The notes beneath the pieces were generated by a model. It searched no databases. It worked only from the letters and a program-made list of their open reading frames with translations, and was not told the origin of the DNA. A stretch of DNA of 47,936 nucleotides. Origin: a bacterium (lineage in GTDB: Bacteria; Verrucomicrobiota; Verrucomicrobiia; Limisphaerales; UBA11358). Below are positions 6,048 to 18,341 of this stretch, one piece after another. The stretch spans positions 1 to 47,936 of the forward strand of contig JAKALA010000026.1 in NCBI GenBank assembly GCA_021813325.1, given 5' to 3'. The number at the start of each line of letters is the position of its first letter. The stretch's first letter is position 1. The translations under genes and the position numbers were made by a program.

Positions 6048-6791
6048 TCACGGGAAGGTGTTCCAAATCAACTCGGGGTTGTTGGTGCGGGCACCCTGGC
6101 TGTCCCAGTATTCGGCCAGCCGGAATCGCCTCGCATGACCATCTAAAAAGACAAAATTGGCCCCGCGATTATGCAGGTTGGTATGCACATAGTTTTGCGG
6201 TCCCCACGCCGGCAGGTTCTTGGAATCAAACAACCAGACCACAGCCGATAACCCGGCGGGAATGCTCCCCAGTTTCATGTCGGTGTGGTCCGTGCCGGAC
6301 GGCGGCACGCCCATGCCGTCAAAGCCGTCGTTCAGGCAATAGTGAAATAAGTTGTTGCCGTTGCTCCGGCGTGGGTTGCCGGGGCAAATCCAGAGCGAAT
6401 GCCCGGGGTCGATCGCCGCATTGGTGCGCCACCCGTTGGCGTAATACCACGGAACGCCCACGGCGAGCGGCAACAGGCAATACCAATTGTTGGTATGCGC
6501 AGAGGCGGTGGGAACGGACGGCGGATTGGCAATGCCCTCGCGCGGCAACAAGTCGTTATTGTCGGCCACATAAATCTGCGTGGCCAAGCCCCATTGCTTC
6601 AGGTTGTTGAGGCATTGCACCCCTTGCGCGGTGGCTTTGGCCCGGCCCAACGCCGGCAACAACAACGCCGCCAGGATGGCGATGATCGCGATCACCACCA
6701 GCAGTTCAATCAGCGTAAATCCCTCGCGGGCGGGCGGGTTGCCGCGAAGACAGATTCGCTCCCAATGTCCGTTATTTTCCGATGGCCTCAT
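6048..6791 (-). CDS. prepilin-type (type II pseudopilin-like) protein
   Basis: 247 aa. The class III signal is [19 protein letters not shown]: cleavage would be after Gly24 and before Phe25, with Glu29 at position +5 and a single hydrophobic helix to about residue 46. The globular part contains [11 protein letters not shown] and ends with [15 protein letters not shown], the DG motif seen in a family greatly expanded in Planctomycetota and Verrucomicrobiota. It would be processed by a prepilin peptidase and anchored in the inner membrane. ATG at 6791 is chosen because GAGGG lies 9 nt upstream; a longer start at 6866 would overlap the divergent gene. Its partner assembly system is not in this window. 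Confidence 0.88.
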
Positions 6792-6947
6792 GACTAAATT
6801 CCCTCTGAATTGCCCACGATATACTCCCGACCGGGCAGCCAATGCAAGATTTTGCTGAATCGCCAAACACCCCGGCTCACGAAATTTTCCGTGGCGCGCA
6901 TTCTCAAAGACGTTAACCTGCGCTCCAGCAAATCAATCCATTGGAAC

Positions 6948-8468
6948 ATGAAATATCTGTTAAGCCTGGCGCTCCTGCTCGCCACCTTCCCGCTTGGCGC
7001 CGCCGAAACCAATCCTCCGACGGCCACCAATTCCCCCGTCTCCGCTGAAAAATCGGCCCTGGGAAAAATCCCTGACGCCTCGCATCCGGCCATGCGCGTA
7101 ACCAACACCGTCACGATTGCCGGCGAACCCGTCACCTATGTGGCTGAAACCGGCATGCTGCCGTTGCTTCAGCCGGATGGCTCCTCGCGCGCTTCGGTTT
7201 TTTACGTGGCCTACACCAAACGGGACGAACCGAACCAGGCCAAGCGCCCCGTCACGTTTTGCTTCAACGGCGGGCCCGGCTCGGCTTCGGTTTGGCTGCA
7301 CCTGGGCGCGCTGGGACCGCGCCGCGTCATAATGAATGAAGACGGTTCGCAACCGCCGCCGCCGTATGCGCTGGTGGATAACGCGTATTCCATACTCAAC
7401 GCGAGCGATTTGGTCTTCATTGATCCTGTCGCCACCGGCTTCAGCCGTCCCGCCAAGGATGAAAAGGTGGATCAATTCTTTGGCGACTCGGCGGATTTGG
7501 AATCCGTGGGCGAATTCATCCGGCTTTGGACCACGCGGCATGACCGCTGGCTTTCGCCGAAATTTCTTTGCGGCGAAAGTTACGGTGTCTTCCGCGCCGC
7601 CGGTCTGGCTGAATATCTTCGCGGCCGTTACGGCATGTATTTGAACGGCTTGGTGCTGGTATCGGGCGTGCTGGATTTTGGCACGCTCAACGGCGGCACC
7701 GGCAACGATCTGCCGTATCCGCTGATTCTGCCGGCTTACACGGCGGCGGCTCATTTTCATAAAAAATTGCCGGCGGATTTGCAGGCCGACCTGGGCAAAG
7801 CCCTGGCTGAATGCCGCAGCTTTGCGCGCGGCGAATATACCTCGGCCCTGCTTCAGGGCGCGGCCCTGCCAGCAGAGGAACGCCAGAAAGTGGTCGCCGA
7901 ACTGGCGCGGCTTACCGGCCTGAGCCCGTCGGTCATTGAGGACAATGATTTGCGCGTGGACCCGGGCGTCTTTCGCAAGCAACTGCTGCACGATCAAGGC
8001 CTGATTCTCGGGGCTTACGACGGACGACTGACCGGGCGCGATGGCGATCCGGCGTCGCCGCGATCCGGCTTTGATCCCTCCAGCGCGGCGGTTATGGGAC
8101 CGTTCTCCGCCGCCATGAATTCGTATGTGCGCAATGAATTAAAGTTCGAAGACGATTTGCCGTATGAACTGCTCGCCGGGGTGCAGCCGTGGAACTACGG
8201 GGCGCGAAATAACTTTGCCAATGCCAGCGATAAACTTGCCGCCGTCATGAACCAGGAGCCTTATCTGCGCGTGCTGGTGCTGGGCGGACGCTGCGATCTG
8301 GTTTGTCCCATCGACACCATCCGCCACAGCATCGAGCACCTGCCACTCGCGCCCGCCTACCGGCAGAACATCCAATTCGCCGAATTCGATGCCGGGCACA
8401 TGATGTATATCAACCTGCCGGACCTGAAGAAAATGCAGACGGACCTGACCCGGTTTATCGATCAATAA
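6948..8468 (+). CDS. secreted S10-family serine carboxypeptidase-like peptidase
   Basis: 506 aa. A signal peptide (MKYLLSLALLLATFPLGAA) points to export to the periplasm or outside. The alpha/beta-hydrolase core shows FCFNGGPGSAS (oxyanion region, 105-114) and the nucleophile Ser211 in CGESYG. The Asp450 in GGRCDLVCP and His484 in AGHMMY complete a Ser-Asp-His triad. These fit family S10, which trims C-terminal residues from peptides. ATG at 6948 is chosen because the signal peptide starts there; upstream codons in frame are unlike protein. It is divergent from the prepilin gene. Confidence 0.9.
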   Translation: MKYLLSLALLLATFPLGAAETNPPTATNSPVSAEKSALGKIPDASHPAMRVTNTVTIAGEPVTYVAETGMLPLLQPDGSSRASVFYVAYTKRDEPNQAKRPVTFCFNGGPGSASVWLHLGALGPRRVIMNEDGSQPPPPYALVDNAYSILNASDLVFIDPVATGFSRPAKDEKVDQFFGDSADLESVGEFIRLWTTRHDRWLSPKFLCGESYGVFRAAGLAEYLRGRYGMYLNGLVLVSGVLDFGTLNGGTGNDLPYPLILPAYTAAAHFHKKLPADLQADLGKALAECRSFARGEYTSALLQGAALPAEERQKVVAELARLTGLSPSVIEDNDLRVDPGVFRKQLLHDQGLILGAYDGRLTGRDGDPASPRSGFDPSSAAVMGPFSAAMNSYVRNELKFEDDLPYELLAGVQPWNYGARNNFANASDKLAAVMNQEPYLRVLVLGGRCDLVCPIDTIRHSIEHLPLAPAYRQNIQFAEFDAGHMMYINLPDLKKMQTDLTRFIDQ

Positions 8469-8476
8469 AAGTTGCA

Positions 8477-11400
8477 CTACGGCGTCACCGTTGGACTGGA
8501 AGCATCGGGCGGCGCATTGGTATTGGGCGACGGCGAGAACAATCCTTTGATCGTATCAATGGGATGCATCGGCGCGAGGAGCATTCGCGCGGGCAGCAAA
8601 ATGGGCTTGGCCTTGGGATCTTCCAGCGTGCCGGTGACATCGCATTCAAACACCTTGCTCACCGGCCAGAGCAAGGTGCTGACCAGCGGCCCCACCACCC
8701 AAACATCGCGCAGCAAATGCGCCGTGACCCGGGCTTTGACATTTTCCTGCAAATCCACCGTGCCGGTGTAACTCAAGCGCATCAGTTTGGTGTGTATTTC
8801 CATCGAATCCGTGGCAATCACGCCGTTGGTCAGGATGTATTGCGCCGTCGCCTCAGTGGCGCGGCTGTTGCCCAAGCCCGTGGAAACCGTGTTGAGCACG
8901 GGCGAAATGATGCCGAACACCGGATAATCCCAAAGCAATCCATCCCGCAGTTTCAACTGGCCGTGGCCATTCCAAGTGTGCCAGTCGGAGGAGTTGGCCC
9001 GCGTCACCGTCACGCGCCCGGAAAGCATTCCTTCCAGCTTGTTGGTCGGCGCCCACAAAGCCTCGGCCATGCGATGCAAATCCACATTGGCGCCCGTCGC
9101 CTCAAAGCTCATATCGGTGCCGACGATTTCCGGTCGCAAATCAAAAATTCCCCACCCGCGCACCTCGCCGCCGTAGGCTTCCGAAACCGCATTGGTCAGG
9201 ATCAAATGGTGGTTCCACCAATGAATCCGCCCGGAAATCGCCGGCGTTTCAAATTTGCGCCAGCGGAAATGCGCCGTGCCCACCAAATCCACCCATAAAT
9301 CCGCGTCATCCTGCACCACCTCGCCATCCACCTGTTTCAGCGGAATACAGCCCTGAACCCGCGCCGTCGGCACGTCCAGAAATTCATACGGCGCCATCGC
9401 CTCGGCCGTTTTGGGGCCGATCGCCCGGCCCACCACCATCGGCTCGACATTCCCCGCGCCGCCAGCGATGAACAACCGTTCGCCCGCCAGATCCAACGTG
9501 ACTTTTTCAGCGGAGAATTGCTGCGCTCCGCCGGCGCGAACCAGTTTTGGCTCCGCAAAATTCGCCGTCAAATTGGAATAAACCACATTGGCCGTCACGC
9601 GATCCACCGTTTGCTGGCGAATGGCAAAATCCGCCAGCGCCAGCCGCCCGGTCGCCGTCAAATCGCTCAACGCGTCCAGCCGGCCATTCGCGCTCAACGC
9701 CAAATCGAGCGGCTGTGAAAACGTGAGCTCATCAAAACCGCGGATTGCCCGGGGCGCGGTGAGAAAAGTCTTGATATTGACCAGGTCAAATTGGCCCGAT
9801 AACGTCGCGGCGAACTGCCGGCTGAATTCGTTGGCCCGCGCCCCCAATTCCAGGTGCGTCCGGCCTTGTTCAATGCGTCCGCTCACGGTCATGTTGGTGC
9901 GCGCCTGCCAGTTGCCGTTTGCGGCGAGCTGCAATTTCACGGGTTCCCTGGCGGTCAGTTCCACCATTTTGTCCAAAATAAAATTGGTGGCTAAAAACGG
10001 ACTCAAACTGCCGGCATCCAACTGGCCGTGGATTTCGCTCTCAAAATTCTTCGTGAGCGCATTGCCACTGCCGGTGAACCGCAACTCGCTGCGCCCTTGC
10101 GCCACGCGTCCGGTTGCCGTCAACCGATCCGGCGTTTGCCAGTTGCCCTGGAGGTCGAGCGCCAGCGAGGTCAGCTCATTCGTCGCCAGGACCGGAGGCG
10201 AATAGCCCGCCTGATCTGGTTTAAAAAACGGACGCAAATTGGCCGGGTCGATTTGCGCGCTGAGATGTCCGGAAAAATGCTTCGTCCGGTCGCCCGCCGT
10301 GCCGGTCAGGCTGACGTGCGTGCGCCCTTGCGCCAGTTTCAATTCCGTCAAATTCCAATCGGAACCGGTTTTGCTGAGGCGCGTTTGCACGCGATCCAGC
10401 GGCACGGAATGAACCGCCAGATTGTCGCCGGTCAGTCCGGCGGAAATTTCCCAGGACGGTCCGCTCACCGGCTCATCGGCGGCGGCATCCGTCCACGGCG
10501 GCAGGCGGAACGAACCATCGCCGCGCAGGCGGGGAATTTTGGACCAGGTCATTTCCCGCAACCACGGCTGGTATTTATCCGGCAGCGCCGGGGCCAGTGC
10601 GCGCAGGTCAAACTGGAAATCATTGGTGAAATTCACCCGGCGCGACGGCACATTCAGCCGCGCAGCCACCGCCAGTTCTCCCCCGCCAAAGCCGGCGGAA
10701 AGATTGGTCACCCACAAATCCGGCGCGGCCCAAAAGCCCGCGCAAGCCAGTTTTTTCGCGGATCCTTTCGCGGTTTTCAAAGAACTCGCCCGCATGGCCC
10801 ACTTAATCCGAAACGGCTCCAAATCAGCCCAGAAGCCCCAGGCCGGATTGCTGTTGGTTTGGGCGAGATCCGGCGCCGCCAGTTCCGCCGTGGCCTGAAA
10901 GTCATTGGCCGAAAACCAGGGCGTTTTCACCCCGATCGCGGCCGCTTCCAGTCGCGCGGTCATGGTATGCACATTCCGCGCATCACCGGCCAGGGCCAGG
11001 CGCAATTGCGGTTCGCCTTCAAAGTGGATTTGTTTCAGCGTCTCGGAAAAATCCTTGAGCGATGCGATGATGGCGCTGCGGTCCGAACTGGCGCCGCCAA
11101 ACATTTTCCAATGCGCGGCCTCGGGGGCGTGGGTCACTTCGCCGCGAATGGCAATCAACGCCCCGGCAAAGTGCGCGCGGAAATGATCCAACGACCATGT
11201 GCCCGCTTCGCCAAAACGCAGGTCGGTTTGCAGGTTGGTGAGTGTCAGTTCGTTCGTGGGCGAGAGCGGCAGGAAAAAAAAACCGTCTTTCAGGATCAAC
11301 CCGTTCAGTTCCAAACGCCGGCGCAAGAACGCCGAAAAATCCAGTTGTAAACGGACTTCGCGGGCTCCGACTGCGGCGTGTTCCCGGGTCTGGCTTTCGC

Positions 11401-11632
11401 CGATGTGAACATTTTCCGCGATCAGCCCGCGCGCCAGACTCAGCCGCATCCGGCTGAACTCCAGATCCAGCCCCTGTTCGTGGAGCGAAGCAACGATCCG
11501 GGTTTTAATAAATCCGGGGAGGCCGATGCGGTTGCACCACAGAAATGCGCCCAGCACCAGCAGCACCGCAAACCAGATCCCGAAGCGAACGCAGCGGAAA
11601 CCAATGCGACAGTTGCGCCAGAACCCGGGCAT
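8477..11632 (-). CDS. large AsmA/TamB-like envelope protein
   Basis: 1051 aa. One N-terminal membrane segment (about 15-34) is followed by a very long beta-rich region with many short repeating strands of the type LTATGRVAQGRSELRF, TNMTVSGRIEQGRTHLEL and LSDLTATGRLALADF. The C-terminal part (from about residue 830, VDLHRMAEAL to TGTLEDPKAKPI) resembles the AsmA-like C-terminal domain. Known members are anchored in the inner membrane, span the periplasm as a hydrophobic groove, and are linked to phospholipid transport or outer-membrane assembly. It is the last gene of a five-gene operon: its ATG lies 1 nt after the DUF4340 stop. The exact subfamily and cargo are unknown. Confidence 0.75.
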   Translation of the reverse strand: MPGFWRNCRIGFRCVRFGIWFAVLLVLGAFLWCNRIGLPGFIKTRIVASLHEQGLDLEFSRMRLSLARGLIAENVHIGESQTREHAAVGAREVRLQLDFSAFLRRRLELNGLILKDGFFFLPLSPTNELTLTNLQTDLRFGEAGTWSLDHFRAHFAGALIAIRGEVTHAPEAAHWKMFGGASSDRSAIIASLKDFSETLKQIHFEGEPQLRLALAGDARNVHTMTARLEAAAIGVKTPWFSANDFQATAELAAPDLAQTNSNPAWGFWADLEPFRIKWAMRASSLKTAKGSAKKLACAGFWAAPDLWVTNLSAGFGGGELAVAARLNVPSRRVNFTNDFQFDLRALAPALPDKYQPWLREMTWSKIPRLRGDGSFRLPPWTDAAADEPVSGPSWEISAGLTGDNLAVHSVPLDRVQTRLSKTGSDWNLTELKLAQGRTHVSLTGTAGDRTKHFSGHLSAQIDPANLRPFFKPDQAGYSPPVLATNELTSLALDLQGNWQTPDRLTATGRVAQGRSELRFTGSGNALTKNFESEIHGQLDAGSLSPFLATNFILDKMVELTAREPVKLQLAANGNWQARTNMTVSGRIEQGRTHLELGARANEFSRQFAATLSGQFDLVNIKTFLTAPRAIRGFDELTFSQPLDLALSANGRLDALSDLTATGRLALADFAIRQQTVDRVTANVVYSNLTANFAEPKLVRAGGAQQFSAEKVTLDLAGERLFIAGGAGNVEPMVVGRAIGPKTAEAMAPYEFLDVPTARVQGCIPLKQVDGEVVQDDADLWVDLVGTAHFRWRKFETPAISGRIHWWNHHLILTNAVSEAYGGEVRGWGIFDLRPEIVGTDMSFEATGANVDLHRMAEALWAPTNKLEGMLSGRVTVTRANSSDWHTWNGHGQLKLRDGLLWDYPVFGIISPVLNTVSTGLGNSRATEATAQYILTNGVIATDSMEIHTKLMRLSYTGTVDLQENVKARVTAHLLRDVWVVGPLVSTLLWPVSKVFECDVTGTLEDPKAKPILLPARMLLAPMHPIDTIKGLFSPSPNTNAPPDASSPTVTP

Positions 11633-11633
11633 A

Positions 11634-13433
11634 TCACGGAGCGTTGGGCGGAATGGTCAGATACGTGGTAATAAACTGGTAAAGCACGGCGGGGAAAATA
11701 AATGCCCAGCGTTCATTGCCATAGGTGACCGCCGCGAACGCGCTGTGGAGCGCAGGCAGTTCGCCGCCGAATTCCAGCGTCAGTTTTTCGCCGGTCTTCA
11801 ACTCAACGGTGATCGAGAGGTTGTCGGGGTTCAGGCCGTAATTTTTGACGCCATCTTCTGCGCTGAAGTCGCAGCCCACCCAGCCGGCGGCGGTCAGTTG
11901 GCCCAGCCGGTGGATGGTTTCCTCCACGGCGGGCGGATTGTCCAGAATCCCCTGGGAACCGAGCGACCATTTATTTTCGCCGGTTCGGATCAACACGCGT
12001 GTTTTGCCACTTTGATGCAGTGTGACCTGGGCCACATTCGTTTCCGAAAAATTCCAGACGCGGCGGTCGCGATAAAACCAGCCGGCATCAAACAGGAACA
12101 GGTTGTTATAATCGGAGGGCGTAATGGCATAGACCGATTCTTCATCCGCCCGCTTCGCAAAAACACGGTTGGTTTCCACCGTTCCGAACGACAATTGAGC
12201 CAGCGGCGCGTTGGTGTCGCCCGGCGCGGCCCGTAAAATAATCTGATGCGCGGGGTCGGCGAGGCCAAAGCTTTGCAGGTCGGCGGCACTGGCCAGATCT
12301 TTCACGAACTCGGACACCCGCAAATCGCCCAAGATTTTCAGCAGCGCCTGCACCGAGCCGGCGTCCCCGGGATATTTTTCACCGGCCACAACCCAGTTGG
12401 TGCCGCGAAATTGCAGCGTGTAATTGATGGTGTTGTTGGTGCCGCGAAATTCAATTTCGCCGACCGGCGCGGTGAGATTCAGCAGATGCGGATCGCGATA
12501 ATCATTCACCGCGCCGCGCCAGCCGCTGAAGGCGTCCTTGCCCGCCGCCGCCACGGTATTCCAGCCGGCGCGGCGGACATAAATCTGGCTGGCGTTGTCC
12601 GGCAGATTGTTGCCCGCCTGCACCCCGGAAACCAGATTGGTGCCGCGGCCCAGCCAGACATCCAAATTGGCCGGCTGCAAGCCGTAACTGCTCAAATCGC
12701 GCGGGTCATCCGTGATGAATTGGCTGATCTGCCCGCCCTGCAACTGCTGCAACGCCGTCGCCAGCCGGCGGCCATCCGCCCGCGCCTTCAACGGGCTGGT
12801 CATGCGCCATAGCTGGTTGGTGGGGTCGCGCCGGAATTCCATGAGCTTGCCGGCGTTGGTAATGACGATCCAATCATACGTCGCGGAAGCGTTCACAAGC
12901 TCGGTGTCCCGCCAGTCGCTGGCGGCGCGGGGGAGCCATTGCAACCAGCCGGCATCCGTCACGAAAATGCCGTCAGTGCCGACAACGCGCACATAAACCT
13001 GATCGCCGGGAGCCGTGAGTTTGCCAATGTTCAACTGCCGTCGCTGGCCGCCGCCGGCAATGACCACGGAATCTCTGGGCGTATCAAAGCCGAATTCAAC
13101 GTCCGGATTTTTGTGCTCGCGCAGATCCGCCGCCGTGAGGCGCGTGACGGGAACCAATTTCACCAGCGCCTCCGCCAAGGAATCCACGGCGGTTTTTTGC
13201 GCCGGATAAAACAGCGGCTTTTGCAGCACCCACTGGCCGTTGGTGCGCGCCACGCTGATTTCCCGGGCTTCCGCCGGCGTGACCTGAATGCCGGTGATGT
13301 CCGTCGTGAGCAAGCCCGGCAGCAACGGCGCCACGGCGACGAGGCCGGCCCGCCAGTATTTTTTCTGCGCCCAGATGGCGGCGGACAGCAGGGCCGCGAT
13401 CAACAGCCAAATGACGGTGGATTTCGATTTCAT
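11634..13433 (-). CDS. DUF4340 domain protein
   Basis: 599 aa. An N-terminal anchor (VIWLLIAALLSAAIWAQ, about 6-22) is followed by a soluble part made of repeated DUF4340-type units, e.g. DITGIQVTPAE, NPDVEFGFDTPRDSVVI, DLSSYGLQPANLDVWLG, DLQSFGLADPAHQIILR and VKNYGLNPDNLSITVEL. Such proteins regularly accompany GldG-like ABC components, but their role is not established. ATG at 13433 overlaps the upstream stop as ATGA. The extension to 13598 is read-through of the upstream gene's other frame. Confidence 0.85.
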   Translation of the reverse strand: MKSKSTVIWLLIAALLSAAIWAQKKYWRAGLVAVAPLLPGLLTTDITGIQVTPAEAREISVARTNGQWVLQKPLFYPAQKTAVDSLAEALVKLVPVTRLTAADLREHKNPDVEFGFDTPRDSVVIAGGGQRRQLNIGKLTAPGDQVYVRVVGTDGIFVTDAGWLQWLPRAASDWRDTELVNASATYDWIVITNAGKLMEFRRDPTNQLWRMTSPLKARADGRRLATALQQLQGGQISQFITDDPRDLSSYGLQPANLDVWLGRGTNLVSGVQAGNNLPDNASQIYVRRAGWNTVAAAGKDAFSGWRGAVNDYRDPHLLNLTAPVGEIEFRGTNNTINYTLQFRGTNWVVAGEKYPGDAGSVQALLKILGDLRVSEFVKDLASAADLQSFGLADPAHQIILRAAPGDTNAPLAQLSFGTVETNRVFAKRADEESVYAITPSDYNNLFLFDAGWFYRDRRVWNFSETNVAQVTLHQSGKTRVLIRTGENKWSLGSQGILDNPPAVEETIHRLGQLTAAGWVGCDFSAEDGVKNYGLNPDNLSITVELKTGEKLTLEFGGELPALHSAFAAVTYGNERWAFIFPAVLYQFITTYLTIPPNAP

Positions 13434-14950
13434 TTGCGGCGGATGAGCCAGACCAGCCAGCCAAAGAACAGCACGCCGCCGGGCAGCGCGCCCAGCAGAA
13501 GCCAGCGCACTTGTTCGAGCTGGTGTTTGGTGAGGGTCAGGCGATATTCGATCACGGGTCTGGGGCCGATGCCGGAGAGCAGTTGTTCCCGGTTGCAAAG
13601 CCAGTTGACAGCGTAGTTGAGAAAATCACGGTTGGCGGCCGCTTCGATCAGTTGATTGTCCAGAAACAGCGAATCGCCCGCGATGACCATGCGCGTGTTG
13701 CCACGGGGGGTGATGATGCCGGCGGCGGGCTTTTTCTCGACGGAAGCAATGAGCGGATAGCCGCGCGGCGCCGCCGAGGGATCCCCGGCCAGCGTGGATG
13801 TGTCGCTGGAACCGACCAGCGCCTCGACTTGAGGCGAGCTGGCCGACTTGTTCGCCTGGTCGATGGGCATGACCGGCCGCGGCAACACCATTTCCAGCGC
13901 CAGTTGGGACAGCGGGCTGACAAAAGTTTTGCCATTGAAGTTGCGGACCAAGACCACCTGGTTGTTCCCGGAACTGCGGGCATCGTTGACATAATCGGCG
14001 GCGACATTCACGCCCCAGCGCTGTAAAACCGGCTCCAAGCCGGTGGGCGTTCGCAGCGTGGAATAATTGAAAAGCATCAATAAACGGCCACCCTGCGTGA
14101 GATAACGGTCGATTTTCCCGACTTCGGCCGGATCCAGCGTTTTGACCGGCGCGGCGATGACGAGCAAACTGCAATCAGCCGGCACATCCGGCAGGCCCAG
14201 CAAGTCCAGGTTGTGGAGGGCAATGTCATTTTGCGCCAGGGCGCTGCCGAATTTTTGAAAGCCGCCATCCCCCGTGTCGGTGAGCGACGATTCGCCGTGT
14301 CCCTGCAAAAAATACGCCTGCAACGGCTGGCCCTGGGTCAACTCCAGCAGCTTGGAGGTGAACATCACCTCGCCGTTGAACAACACGGGCTTTTTCAGCA
14401 GTTGCATCCGCGTTTCTTTGGGGTCATAACCCGGATCGTCCGGGGACATTTGCACCGTTTGAAAACTGATGATGACGGAGCCGGGAACAACCACATGGCG
14501 GTCGCCGACGGCAAAGATGACCAGGTCTTTCGCCGGCGGCGCGTTCGGGCTGGCCAGCGAAACCGGCAGGTCGTATTTCTCCTTCACCTTCATGGCCTCG
14601 GCCGGGTCGCGGGTGTAGTCCACCGTCCGAAGGGTGATATTTTTATTGGCATCGTGATACACGCCGAGGAGGGCGGCGATGTCCGAGTAAAAATTGTCCT
14701 CGTTGTGCGTGTCGTAATAAAGCGTCACCTCCACGCGGTTGGTGATGGAATGGAGGATGTTCAAGGTCCGCGAGGACAATGCCACGCTGGTCTGCCGGCT
14801 GAGGTAGAACCGGTGGTAAAATTTGGCGCCCAGGAAATTGACCATGACCACGACCGCCAGCACCAGCGCCGTGCGCACCGCGCGGTCCACCCAGCTTCCG
14901 AACCGCTGGGGGGACGAAAAACTGGGCTGGGATTTGGGGTCGTTACTCAT
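13430..14950 (-). CDS. GldG-like ABC-associated protein
   Basis: 506 aa. An N-terminal membrane helix (about 27-44) and a C-terminal one (about 478-500, LLLGALPGGVLFFGWLVWL) flank a large periplasmic domain. The features are those of GldG-type proteins: RTLNILHSITNRVEVTLYYD, LQGHGESSLTDTGDGGFQKF, and DRYLTQGGRLLMLFNYS in a ThuA/GATase-like fold. It starts 1 nt after the permease stop and overlaps the DUF4340 gene. In Bacteroidota the GldA/F/G set is tied to gliding. Here no other gliding genes are present, so an envelope export or remodelling role is more likely. Confidence 0.85.
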   Translation of the reverse strand: MSNDPKSQPSFSSPQRFGSWVDRAVRTALVLAVVVMVNFLGAKFYHRFYLSRQTSVALSSRTLNILHSITNRVEVTLYYDTHNEDNFYSDIAALLGVYHDANKNITLRTVDYTRDPAEAMKVKEKYDLPVSLASPNAPPAKDLVIFAVGDRHVVVPGSVIISFQTVQMSPDDPGYDPKETRMQLLKKPVLFNGEVMFTSKLLELTQGQPLQAYFLQGHGESSLTDTGDGGFQKFGSALAQNDIALHNLDLLGLPDVPADCSLLVIAAPVKTLDPAEVGKIDRYLTQGGRLLMLFNYSTLRTPTGLEPVLQRWGVNVAADYVNDARSSGNNQVVLVRNFNGKTFVSPLSQLALEMVLPRPVMPIDQANKSASSPQVEALVGSSDTSTLAGDPSAAPRGYPLIASVEKKPAAGIITPRGNTRMVIAGDSLFLDNQLIEAAANRDFLNYAVNWLCNREQLLSGIGPRPVIEYRLTLTKHQLEQVRWLLLGALPGGVLFFGWLVWLIRRK

Positions 14951-14951
14951 C

Positions 14952-15704
14952 TTATTTCCAGCGCCGGCTTTCCACCACGCGCAAGGTCAGGAACAAAAAG
15001 AAAAACGTCGCGCTCACGTAAAACACCACCGTGCGGGTGTCCACCACACCGCGCGCAAAATCGTGCATTTGCTCGAACAATCCGAAATAGGCGAGCGCCT
15101 GGTTTTGCCATTCGGAGGTCGCCGGCAGCGCCGCCGCCAGAAAGCCAAGCGAAAACAGACTGACGCCCAGCCCAAAACTGATCATGGCCGCCGCGACCTG
15201 GCTCCGTGAAAGCGACGAGGCAAAACAACCCAGCGACAAAAACAGGCTGCCGGTCAGACCGATGCCCAGCGCCATGCCGCCGGCGGTGCCCGCGTCCAGC
15301 CCGGCATTTTGCTGCGTGAAATGGCGCACAATCAACAGGCAGGCCACCAGCGGCAGCCACGCGAACAGGTAGAAAATCTGCGCCGCGACAAATTTGGAGG
15401 CGACAATCTGCACATCGCCCACCGGCGTGGTCGTCAGGGTTTCAAATGTGCCGGACGCCTTTTCCAACGCATACAGGCGCATCGTGATCACCGGCGAAAC
15501 CAGCAGCACGATCAGCCAGAAGAAATAGGTCCGGTAAAACATTTCCGTCACCGGCATCGGCGAAGGACCGCTTCCCAGATTCTGTAGCAGCACCACGAAA
15601 CTCAATCCGGTCAACAGCGCCACCGCCGCAATGATGACATAGCCCGTCAGGTTCAGAAAATACGCGCCCAGTTCCCGGCGCAGCAGTATGCAGAAAATGC
15701 TCAT
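14952..15704 (-). CDS. ABC-2 type permease (GldF-like)
   Basis: 250 aa inner-membrane protein with about six hydrophobic segments, beginning MSIFCILLRRELGAYFLNLTGYVIIA. The cytoplasmic coupling region contains LYALEKASGTFETLTTTPV, typical of ABC-2/NatB/GldF permeases. Its ATG overlaps the ATPase stop by 4 bp, and the GldG-like gene follows 1 nt after it, so the three are almost certainly one complex. Confidence 0.9.
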   Translation of the reverse strand: MSIFCILLRRELGAYFLNLTGYVIIAAVALLTGLSFVVLLQNLGSGPSPMPVTEMFYRTYFFWLIVLLVSPVITMRLYALEKASGTFETLTTTPVGDVQIVASKFVAAQIFYLFAWLPLVACLLIVRHFTQQNAGLDAGTAGGMALGIGLTGSLFLSLGCFASSLSRSQVAAAMISFGLGVSLFSLGFLAAALPATSEWQNQALAYFGLFEQMHDFARGVVDTRTVVFYVSATFFFLFLTLRVVESRRWK

Positions 15705-16648
15705 TCGCCCTCCTCCGTAGCCGGTTGCGTGACCTGCATGTAAATATCCTCCAGCGTGTGCCGGCTGCGGGTCAGTTCGCGCAAACTCCAGTTTTTCTCC
15801 CGCGCCAGTTGATAAATGATCGGCCGCAAATCACTTCCCGCCTGGGGCGTCAGGGCACACCGGAAATAATCCCCTTCGCCCGGCGACAGATTAAACGATT
15901 CGACCTCGGGCAGGCTTTCGAACATCGTGCGCAACTCGTTCTCCGGCGCCGCTATTTCGGCAATGATCTGGTTGCCGCCCGCCATGCGCCGCTGCAAATT
16001 TTCCGGCGTGTCCGAGGCCAGCACGCGTCCGCCCAGCATGATCAGGACGCGCCCGCACATCATTTCCACCTCCGGCAGAATGTGCGTGGAAATGAGCACG
16101 GTGTGCCGCCCGCCCAGGCTTTTAATCAGCGCCCGCACCGAGCGGATTTGCTGCGGATCCAGCCCGATCGTGGGTTCGTCCAAAATGATCAGCTCCGGGT
16201 CGTGCACCAGGGCATCCGCCAGGCCGACACGCTGCTTGTAACCCTTGGACAACTGGCCAATCACGCGCCGGCCCACATCGGCCAGCCCGCACTGTTCCAT
16301 CACCGTCGTCACCCGGGCGCGCGACTGGCGCCAGCCCAAACCTTTGATCCGGGCGCGAAATTTCAAATACTCGCGGACGCGCATTTCGGGATAGAGGGGG
16401 TTGTTCTCCGGCATGTAACCGATCCGCCGGCGCACGGCATCCGAATCGTGGAACACATCCAGCCCCGCCACGCGCACCGTGCCGCTGGTGGCGGGCATGA
16501 ACCCGGAAAGCACCCGCATCGTCGTGCTTTTGCCTGCCCCGTTCGGACCCAGCAAGCCCACAATCTCGCCCCGCTCGACAGTGAATGAAATATCATCCAC
16601 CGCCGTGCGTCCAGCATAGCGCTTGGTCAAATTGGAAACTTGAATCAT
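15701..16648 (-). CDS. ABC transporter ATP-binding protein (GldA-like)
   Basis: 315 aa. Walker A GPNGAGKST (34-42), the variant signature LSKGYKQR (133-140), Walker B LIILDEPTIGLD (153-164) and the switch His in STHILPEVE are all present. A C-terminal extension of about 80 residues after the ATPase core is typical of DRR/NatA/GldA types. First gene of the five-gene operon. It supplies energy to the permease and GldG-like partners. The operon is divergent from the DUF2851 gene. Confidence 0.93.
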   Translation of the reverse strand: MIQVSNLTKRYAGRTAVDDISFTVERGEIVGLLGPNGAGKSTTMRVLSGFMPATSGTVRVAGLDVFHDSDAVRRRIGYMPENNPLYPEMRVREYLKFRARIKGLGWRQSRARVTTVMEQCGLADVGRRVIGQLSKGYKQRVGLADALVHDPELIILDEPTIGLDPQQIRSVRALIKSLGGRHTVLISTHILPEVEMMCGRVLIMLGGRVLASDTPENLQRRMAGGNQIIAEIAAPENELRTMFESLPEVESFNLSPGEGDYFRCALTPQAGSDLRPIIYQLAREKNWSLRELTRSRHTLEDIYMQVTQPATEEGE

Positions 16649-16753: not shown

Positions 16754-16769
16754 GTTCAAAAATTTGAAC
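16754..16769. promoter_or_regulatory. perfect inverted repeat in the divergent spacer
   Basis: GTTCAAA-AA-TTTGAAC lies between the ABC operon start (16648, minus) and the DUF2851 start (16815, plus). The two-fold symmetry and 16-bp size suit a dimeric repressor site. No regulator can be named. Confidence 0.35.
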
Positions 16770-16814
16770 GTCGCCGGGCTTGACTTTCCAGCCCCGGCAC
16801 CCAAAGACTGCGTC

Positions 16815-18341
16815 ATGGTTTCCCGGGATGAAAATTTCTACGCCGCCTGGCGCGAAAACCGCAACCCGCTCAACACGTTTCAAGATCGCGACACCGTCCC
16901 GCCGGAAAAATGGCTCCAAGCCGTCTGGCTCCAGCAGCGGTTGCAACGCGACCAGTTAAAAACAACAGACGGTCAAACTGTCCGCGTGTTACACCCGGGT
17001 TTTCTCAGCCGCGAGGGCGGACCCGATTTTCAAGGAGCCGTTTTGCAATTCGCCGGCAACGCGCCGACCACCGGCGATGTGGAGGTTGATTTGCACCCCG
17101 GCGGCTGGCGGGCGCATGGACACGACCGCAACCCCCGGTTTCGCAACGTGATCCTGCACGTCGTTTGGGAAGCATCCGACAAGGGCACTTCCCAGCCTCC
17201 CATCCTGACCTTGAAAAACCGGCTCGATTCACCCCTCGAATTGCTGGAACTCGCGCTGGATCAAACACCCGCTTTGCCGGCGTTTGCGCAGGGCCAATGT
17301 TCCGCGCCCTTGCGCCAGCTTGCCGCCCCGCAACTCGACGAATTATTGCGGGCGGCCGCGCAAATTCGCCTGGAAAACAAAGCCCGCGCCATGCTGATCC
17401 GCGCCAAAGCCGCCGGTTGGGAACAGACCCTGTGGGAACATCTTTTTCGCGCGCTTGGCTACAAGCACAACATCTGGCCCATGCGGCTGCTCGCCGAAAG
17501 CAAATCGCAATGGTTCGCCGCCGGAGACTCGCCCTTCACCCTGCAGGCCCGCCTGCTCGGTATTGGCGGACTGTTGCCGGAGGAACTGTCTTCCTCGCAG
17601 AAAAACTCCAACTCATTTCTCCGCCGCGCCTGGAACCTTTGGTGGCGGGAACGCGATACGTTGGCCGACTGCCTGCTGCCGCGAAGCGTCTGGCATGTTC
17701 ACGGCTTGCGCCCCGCCAATCATCCGCAACGCCGTCTGGCCCTGGCGGCGCATTGGCTGGCGGCGGGAAATTTGCCCGCACAAATTGAAGCGTGGATCGC
17801 TGCTGACTTGCCCGCCGGAAAACGTGGTTCCACCAGCCGCCCTGCGGCCAAAGCCACCCCGCCGGTCAAGCAGCGGCCCTGGCTGGACTCGCTGCACAAA
17901 GTCCTGCAAGTGCCGCCGGACGATTTCTGGTCATGGCATTGGACCTTTAAATCGTGCCAGCTCACCAAACCCCGTCCGTTGCTCGGCACCGCGCGGGTCA
18001 CGGACTTGGCGGTCAATGTCATTCTGCCGTGGCTGTGGATTCGCGCCAGAGAAGGCGCCAATCCATCACTGACCCGGGAAGTGGAACAACGTTTTTTCGC
18101 CTGGCCGGCGGCGGAGGATAATGCCGTGTTGAAACTGGCCCGCCAGCGTCTGCTGGGCAATGCCAGCGCGCGCGCTTTTTCCCGCGCCGCGCAACAACAG
18201 GGTCTCATGCAAATCACCCGTGACTTTTGCGACCATAGCAACGCCGTTTGCGCGGACTGCCCTTTCCCGGAACGGGTCCGAAGCCGGGGCACGCCGCCAA
18301 TAAATTCGCAAGAATACAATAAAGCTGCCACCCTCCCATAA
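16815..18341 (+). CDS. DUF2851 family protein
   Basis: 508 aa with no signal peptide. It matches the pattern of DUF2851: an N-terminal ENFYAAWRENR, the block VRVLHPGFLSREGGPDFQGA, then GDVEVDLHPGGWRAHGHDRN and NVILHVVWE, followed by a long helical C-terminal half. It ends with Cys-rich CDHSNAVCADCPFPERV, which could bind metal. Function of the family is unknown; the HP-G-DF and EVDLHP-D-W-HGH blocks look like an active site. ATG at 16815 is chosen because upstream in-frame codons (from TTG 16764) contain the inverted repeat. Confidence 0.82.
   Translation: MVSRDENFYAAWRENRNPLNTFQDRDTVPPEKWLQAVWLQQRLQRDQLKTTDGQTVRVLHPGFLSREGGPDFQGAVLQFAGNAPTTGDVEVDLHPGGWRAHGHDRNPRFRNVILHVVWEASDKGTSQPPILTLKNRLDSPLELLELALDQTPALPAFAQGQCSAPLRQLAAPQLDELLRAAAQIRLENKARAMLIRAKAAGWEQTLWEHLFRALGYKHNIWPMRLLAESKSQWFAAGDSPFTLQARLLGIGGLLPEELSSSQKNSNSFLRRAWNLWWRERDTLADCLLPRSVWHVHGLRPANHPQRRLALAAHWLAAGNLPAQIEAWIAADLPAGKRGSTSRPAAKATPPVKQRPWLDSLHKVLQVPPDDFWSWHWTFKSCQLTKPRPLLGTARVTDLAVNVILPWLWIRAREGANPSLTREVEQRFFAWPAAEDNAVLKLARQRLLGNASARAFSRAAQQQGLMQITRDFCDHSNAVCADCPFPERVRSRGTPPINSQEYNKAATLP

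Follow-up and report, generated by a model that had tools for sequence, protein, structure and literature searches.

The locus described here raises the question of whether an AsmA-type lipid bridge may work together with an ATP-binding cassette (ABC) transporter of its own. Phospholipid transport in the anterograde direction is the role ascribed to AsmA-like proteins (PMC12800296), and the loading of such a bridge with lipid at the inner membrane, together with the use of energy in that step, is treated as an open question (PMC10900882). In the window, the whole analysed stretch of 47,936 nucleotides (contig JAKALA010000026.1 of assembly GCA_021813325.1, from a member of the order Limisphaerales in the phylum Verrucomicrobiota), five minus-strand genes for a GldA-like ATPase, a GldF-like permease, a GldG-like protein, a DUF4340 protein and an AsmA-like protein follow one another from 16648 to 8477 with junctions of -4, +1, -4 and +1 bp. 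This five-gene association is real, old and non-random. An original prediction made from the window alone had described the five tightly joined genes and the 1051-residue AsmA-like protein, and had read them as an envelope lipid or lipoprotein transport machine; its observation is confirmed, and its reading is partly supported by the results below. We propose, with confidence that falls just short of even, that the operon encodes one ATP-driven trans-envelope lipid exporter with an AsmA-like bridge.

Conservation within the order was followed in 40 genomes including that of the window, and the counts refer to the 39 others. An AsmA match is present in all 40 genomes searched, and the five genes lie in the same order on one strand in 29 of the 39 relatives, a number that includes two genomes in which asmA is cut by the end of the contig (G012 and G028), one in which it is split into two frames (G009) and one with a cut gldA (G019); three more relatives are consistent with this order as far as their contigs extend (G003, G023 and G026). 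A second set was formed by the best 80 of 92 named loci found with the C-terminal AsmA alignment A3, which overlap the genomes of the order sample and are labelled mostly Limisphaerales, Verrucomicrobia subdivision 3, Pedosphaera or unplaced Verrucomicrobia, with few others. The four other genes stand upstream of asmA, with DUF4340 adjacent to it, at 60 of these 80 loci; eight are truncated but consistent, six lie at a contig edge and six are non-adjacent.

The gene order is conserved well beyond the order, which supports the original prediction. The phylum sample comprises 145 genomes, of which 110 carry DUF4340 matches and 74 carry matches to the AsmA C-terminal profile. Both are listed for 66 genomes (that of the window excluded, and with only the stronger DUF4340 matches counted), and 38 of them have AsmA on the same strand as DUF4340 and at most 6 kb downstream of it; these 38 belong to 14 families, 15 genomes being from the class of the window and 23 from elsewhere in the phylum. 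Seventy-four genomes are listed with a DUF4340 frame of 530 aa or more, called long here; they are a subset of the 109 with any match when that of the window is left aside, and those among them without co-localised profiles had their regions read. AsmA lies downstream of the long frame in 45 of these 74 by a tally compiled by hand, spread over 16 families and over more than one class; the 45 are the 38 co-localised genomes together with G040, G057, G124, G098, G169, G178 and G179, where nearly 2 kb intervene, and five further genomes end too early to be read (G043, G123, G135, G143 and G146). Since the class of the window and the rest of the phylum each contain both linked and unlinked families, we infer an old linkage that was lost several times.

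Thirty-three distant loci with DUF4340 were chosen for reading, 24 with the two profiles close together, five with the profiles apart and four with no AsmA match known. Of the 38 genomes in which the profiles co-localise, 24 had their regions read. The genes gldA, gldF, gldG, DUF4340 and asmA follow in this order at 27 of the 33, and the other six are without asmA in the stretch. No flanking family, the families being defined without identification by profile, recurs in more than seven of the 33 loci, which excludes general synteny as the cause. Downstream of asmA in L170, L172, L177, L178 and L192, and in the same orientation, a protein of 951-1219 aa is encoded; it may be a lineage-specific sixth gene product, belonging to a group found in seven of the 33 loci. 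Occurrence of the genes points the same way as their order: AsmA is found in 69 of the 74 genomes with long DUF4340 and in 11 of 70 others (Fisher p 7e-23, uncorrected for kinship and with AsmA searched harder in the 74 than in the 70), and in family f30 the GldG match and the AsmA match are both absent from 14 of 14 genomes searched. The coordinates of the five genes and of a repeat in the last of them are collected in Table 1.

Table 1. Features of the five-gene operon in the window
Feature	Position	Strand	Description	Basis
gldA-like	15701-16648	-	315 aa ABC ATPase	TIGR03522 and ABC_tran profiles, motifs
gldF-like	14952-15704	-	250 aa ABC-2 permease; 4 bp overlap with gldA	TIGR03518, hydropathy
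gldG-like	13430-14950	-	506 aa; starts 1 bp past gldF	PF09822, TIGR03521
DUF4340 protein	11634-13433	-	599 aa; 4 bp overlap with gldG	PF14238, model
AsmA-like	8477-11632	-	1051 aa; starts 1 bp past DUF4340	profiles, alignments, model
Tandem repeat	9668-10180	-	repeat of ~85 residues, at about residues 485-655 of the AsmA-like protein	repeat alignment

Judged by its sequence, the product of the fifth gene is an AsmA-superfamily protein, as had been predicted. It has an N-terminal membrane helix (residues 15-33 by hydropathy, 2-35 in the model) and matches the YhdP family PF13116 over residues 932-1007 only (E 9.3e-8, 30.9 bits); the curated cut-off of 46 bits is not reached, so that it falls outside strict Pfam YhdP membership. 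When 30 family members (the window protein and 29 relatives) were scanned at E<=0.01, YhdP was matched in 24, AsmA in 15 and DUF748 in 9, and the Leptospira GspN profile (GspN_Lepto) matched the N-terminal part of 25, at best with 3e-9, the score of the window protein being 25.7 bits where the cut-off of that profile is 50. The comparison with the E. coli K-12 subfamilies that had been suggested came out divided. In hhalign, whose E-values here are one-pair values, residues 34-135 align to residues 26-136 of YhdP (probability 79.9%, E 1.4e-5) and residues 267-330 to AsmA (69%, E 4.4e-5), and no useful alignment was obtained to TamB (2.3%) or YdbH (0.3%). The region of residues 34-135 is presumably chorein-like. 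Membership in the TamB family was considered and rejected on the TamB alignment and on PF04357, which is not among the matches of the window protein at E<=1; in the genome that carries the window PF04357 finds nothing at E<=0.1, a threshold at which 6 of 14 control genomes matched. In the same genome the AsmA Pfam model gives two weak short frames and misses the window protein, and the YhdP model finds the window protein only, at 6.3e-4, a weak sensitivity with which further AsmA-like bridges are possible.

The model of the AsmA-like protein is of moderate confidence (predicted local distance difference test, pLDDT, 76.1) and consists of the membrane helix, a helix at residues 40-52 and then mostly beta strands with few helices. 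Its 43 predicted strands of at least six residues alternate between hydrophobic and polar positions, scoring 1.20 where shuffles score 0.75 +/- 0.08; this value is reached by none of 1000 shuffles, whereas that of the DUF4340 protein was reached by 54 of 1000. These alternating strands may be read as the lining of a hydrophobic groove, and in that way they bear indirectly on the original prediction, which a structure without such a groove would contradict. The best Foldseek matches are LptD/LptDE (E 4.7e-5, probability 0.87, template-modelling (TM) score <=0.15, root mean square deviation (rmsd) ~40) and apoB; the TamAB chain 9xdd_B appears at E 0.63 with an rmsd of 9.5 over 273 columns. The VIA-align rows are mostly outer-membrane barrels with a best Z of 9.2, chains of YhdP, VPS13 and ATG2 are absent from the fold matches listed, and the sequence search gave no solved relative. 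The tandem repeat stands out from shuffles at z 24.5 in the repeat alignment, and the model falls below pLDDT 50 at residues 514-589 inside it. Many relatives of ~890 aa carry one repeat copy fewer, and the proteins of G002, G004 and G017 (998, 1015 and 1026 aa) align through the repeat at least partly. Because closed frames in the order, leaving out fragments in L043 and L062, span 686-1089 aa, the length of the bridge varies; the 1051 aa of the window protein are the longest in the genus sample, and the three shortest frames (686-726 aa) are without much of the middle.

The GldA-like protein has the intact motifs of an ABC ATPase, with Walker A GPNGAGKS at residue 34, the signature LSKGYKQ at 133, Walker B LIILDE at 153 and the H-loop TH at 188, and it matches ABC_tran (E 3.2e-35) and TIGR03522 (E 5.8e-95, 318.2 bits, below the equivalog cut-off of 402.6). 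The GldF-like permease has about six membrane helices by hydropathy, scores over the cut-offs of ABC2_membrane_2, 3, 4 and 5 and matches TIGR03518 with E 2.8e-35 and 122.5 bits, below the equivalog cut-off of 288.5; the two proteins thus combine an ATPase having Walker A, signature and Walker B with an ABC-2 permease, as expected of an ABC-2 type exporter. The GldG-like protein has a hydrophobic helix at each end and a large part in between, where it matches the GIFT-like domain ABC_transp_aux (PF09822, E 1.8e-18); IFT52_GIFT is matched at 1.8e-4, below the cut-off of that profile, and TIGR03521 at E 1.1e-11 with 44.1 bits, below the equivalog cut-off of 389.85. The DUF4340 protein has an N-terminal membrane helix by hydropathy and matches PF14238 at E 1.9e-50 (172.1 bits, cut-off 25), with repeated domains that appear as four stretches in one profile scan and as three places over the cut-off in another. 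Its model (m8ab4e5a30c56, mean pLDDT 90.7) resembles repeated alpha/beta units when secondary structure and domain matches are compared by eye. No convincing fold match was obtained for it: among the matches listed, Foldseek gave one row past E 0.001 (7nky_O, TM 0.10) and probabilities of at most 0.33, and the best VIA-align row was a thioesterase-like protein (Z 6.4, 104 residues). The sequence search of solved structures gave no relative of the DUF4340 protein (best E 0.19), nothing for the GldG-like protein and a best E of 0.15 for the GldF-like permease. The genome that carries the window holds a second DUF4340 frame elsewhere, of 394 aa with one match (G000:C12:4496-5098), and shorter ones, of 337-456 aa, are found repeatedly in the phylum.

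The gene set, its tight order and deep conservation, the ATPase motifs, the predicted membrane anchors, the AsmA homology and the amphipathic predicted strands are the observed basis for the proposed exporter. The GldA-like ATPase and the GldF-like permease would together act as an ABC-2 transporter and draw lipid out of the inner membrane, the cargo being most likely a glycerophospholipid or another lipidic outer-membrane precursor. The GldG-like and DUF4340 proteins, which are predicted to have inner-membrane anchors and large portions in the periplasm, would serve as a coupling platform and pass the lipid on to the AsmA-like protein, whose hydrophobic-faced beta groove would span the periplasm and release the lipid at the outer membrane. 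The physical complex, the lipid cargo, the outward direction and the ATP coupling are all parts that we infer. More tentatively, and with the balance leaning somewhat against it, the GldAFG-like transporter with its DUF4340 adaptor could be the missing energised inner-membrane loader of the AsmA-like bridge, ancestral in Verrucomicrobiota and still operonic with the bridge in most readable genomes with long DUF4340. The widespread operon provides a named candidate partner for an AsmA-type bridge and a proposed function for two uncharacterised kinds of protein, the GldG-like ABC_transp_aux proteins and DUF4340; if the proposal is true, GldAFG-type transporters would be recast as envelope-lipid machines rather than gliding parts.

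Several known systems share parts of this arrangement. Like the AsmA-like proteins of E. coli (YhdP, TamB, YdbH and AsmA), the window protein has an N-terminal helix, an N-terminus that aligns to YhdP, amphipathic predicted strands and a YhdP/AsmA-like C-terminal match; unlike the E. coli genes, its gene sits in an ABC-transporter operon. None of tamB, yhdP, asmA and ydbH belongs to a run of genes that includes an ABC transporter gene in the E. coli K-12 stretches examined; ytfQ, encoding a sugar ABC binding protein, starts ~2 kb after tamB. The nearest precedent we met for a cluster of an ABC lipid transporter and an AsmA-like protein is in Veillonella parvula, where tolC and tamB directly follow mlaEFD (PMC10665443). 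In that cluster MlaEF and the MCE protein MlaD make up the ABC unit, which is proposed to act against TamB, whereas the window operon has no MCE gene and a GldAFG-like ABC unit. The LptB2FGC-A-DE system, an ABC extractor with a periplasmic beta bridge to the outer membrane (PMC12800296), serves as a working analogy only; it differs in its LptF/LptG permease, as against the ABC-2 permease of the window, and in its bridge. The operon was also considered as a stand-in for a missing Lpt or Mla system, which we rejected, the genome that carries the window encoding LptF/G-type and MlaE proteins. The GldA, GldF and GldG proteins of gliding Bacteroidota are the same three kinds of protein as in the window, and the match to their profiles covers nearly the whole length of GldA and GldF and residues 27-296 of the 506 of GldG; unlike the gliding set, the window proteins fall below all three equivalog cut-offs and are joined with DUF4340 and AsmA-like genes, and in Flavobacterium psychrophilum gldG comes after gldF and before dnaN (PMC5682007). 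A gliding role of the Gld-like proteins was considered and, as far as these sequence scores go, rejected. On the side of the exporter, machinery dedicated to lipid extraction at the inner membrane, were AsmA-like proteins to need it, would have to be essential, and no such machinery is known (PMC10900882); in Verrucomicrobium spinosum, VSP_RS39600, which might correspond to the DUF4340 gene of this operon, contains an essential DUF4340 (PMC12283558). No description of the five-gene association is among the literature matches listed; these are known kinds of protein in a combination without a description in the literature searched, for which the function proposed is plausible.

A number of findings weigh against a single lipid exporter, and many of them lend themselves to another explanation, in which the operon co-expresses two separate functions in envelope growth, the ABC transporter acting on a different substrate (lipoproteins, say, or a surface polymer) and the AsmA-like protein being an independent passive bridge for phospholipid. 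This co-regulation is the strongest rival, though we consider it doubtful. In its favour, asmA is detached in several families in which the four ABC genes stay together. AsmA is not found downstream of DUF4340 in 24 of the 74 genomes of the hand-compiled tally, among them 9 of 9 readable genomes of family f18, 4 of 4 of f19 and G125, where the DUF4340 frame lies outside any recognised gld block. In the order asmA is non-adjacent in 7 of 39 relatives (G001, G008, G010, G017, G018, G020 and G025): in G001 a gene for an MmeI-type restriction-modification protein of 1100 aa and a 108-aa gene split DUF4340 from asmA (L090:4420-8059, contig G001:C9), and the other six keep the four ABC genes together but apart from asmA, although in G025 only ~0.4 kb can be read past DUF4340, asmA being on another contig with no ABC genes before it. 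Two genomes of 0.9 Mb and 99% completeness, G075 and G096, have an AsmA match with no GldG or DUF4340 match, so that, in small genomes at any rate, AsmA can be kept when this transporter is missing. In G064, G085 and G165 the AsmA matches are accompanied by no more than weak GldG matches. The literature adds its own objections. No ABC partner is known for the E. coli AsmA-like proteins. The authors of a 2024 paper on Pseudomonas doubt that machinery dedicated to extraction from the inner membrane would have been overlooked unless redundant, discuss LptBFG and LolCDE as improbable candidates, and suggest instead that lipid synthesis could drive a passive flow (PMC10900882). In flavobacteria, mutation of GldA lowers the levels of GldJ and GldK and mutation of GldF lowers that of GldK (PMC9127263), and disruption of gldG mislocalises surface proteins (PMC5682007), phenotypes that do not point specifically to phospholipid. 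The genome that carries the window has two LptF/G-type and three MlaE genes and hence other lipid ABC systems, and the AsmA-like model is only moderate and its structural matches weak. Against co-regulation stands the adjacency itself, which is kept over 16 families amid a scrambled surrounding gene order, and the one-base junction that suggests coupled translation in the window; co-regulation alone would seldom preserve one neighbour for so long.

Separation of asmA from the ABC genes is thus not the rule among relatives, the non-adjacent cases being 7 of 39 in the order and 24 of 74 in the phylum with five more unreadable, and it is these absences on which the idea of a mere neighbour, kept by shared descent and little rearrangement without any functional link, has to rely. 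With no other flanking family kept in more than seven of 33 loci and AsmA kept over 16 families in and outside the class, we regard that idea as very improbable. An unlikely explanation, though less so, is that the operon encodes a mechanical or assembly machine, in which the GldA/F/G-like complex uses ATP to drive a periplasmic lever, made of the GldG-like protein, DUF4340 and an AsmA-like rod, that assembles or secretes outer-membrane proteins, the AsmA-like protein being a GspN- or TamB-like factor and not a lipid conduit. The GspN_Lepto matches described above would fit such a machine, as would the neighbours of some detached genes: in L089 (11106-13472) asmA is convergent with a secretin gene, identified by Pfam, and with a small gene without a Pfam match, and secretin-like neighbours were recognised by eye in L081, L090, L091 and L101. 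These secretin neighbours are convergent and not co-transcribed, and they were examined only where asmA is detached or the operon interrupted; at the 33 distant loci, flanking families of whatever kind recur in seven at most. The single lipid exporter accordingly remains our preferred proposal, and the 'fusion' of an ABC engine and a bridge that the original prediction had spoken of holds as gene adjacency and no further.

The gene next to gldA, encoding a DUF2851 protein (frame 16764-18341), is divergent from the operon, and a peptidase S10 gene ending at 8468 is convergent with it, from which it follows that the five genes probably form one transcript. Matches to promoters and terminators at the operon are no more numerous than in shuffles, and no promoter was identified. 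The start of DUF4340 was taken as the ATG at 13433, a longer frame from a TTG up to 13598 being also open. The junction between DUF4340 and asmA, read by eye, is TGA-T-ATG with no obvious Shine-Dalgarno sequence, and its single base suggests that translation of the two genes in the window may be coupled. At L091 (7226-7969) the detached asmA is immediately preceded by the gene of a different ABC ATPase. Elsewhere in the window, a DUF1559 protein with a prepilin-type N-terminal methylation motif is encoded at 6048-6866 on the minus strand.

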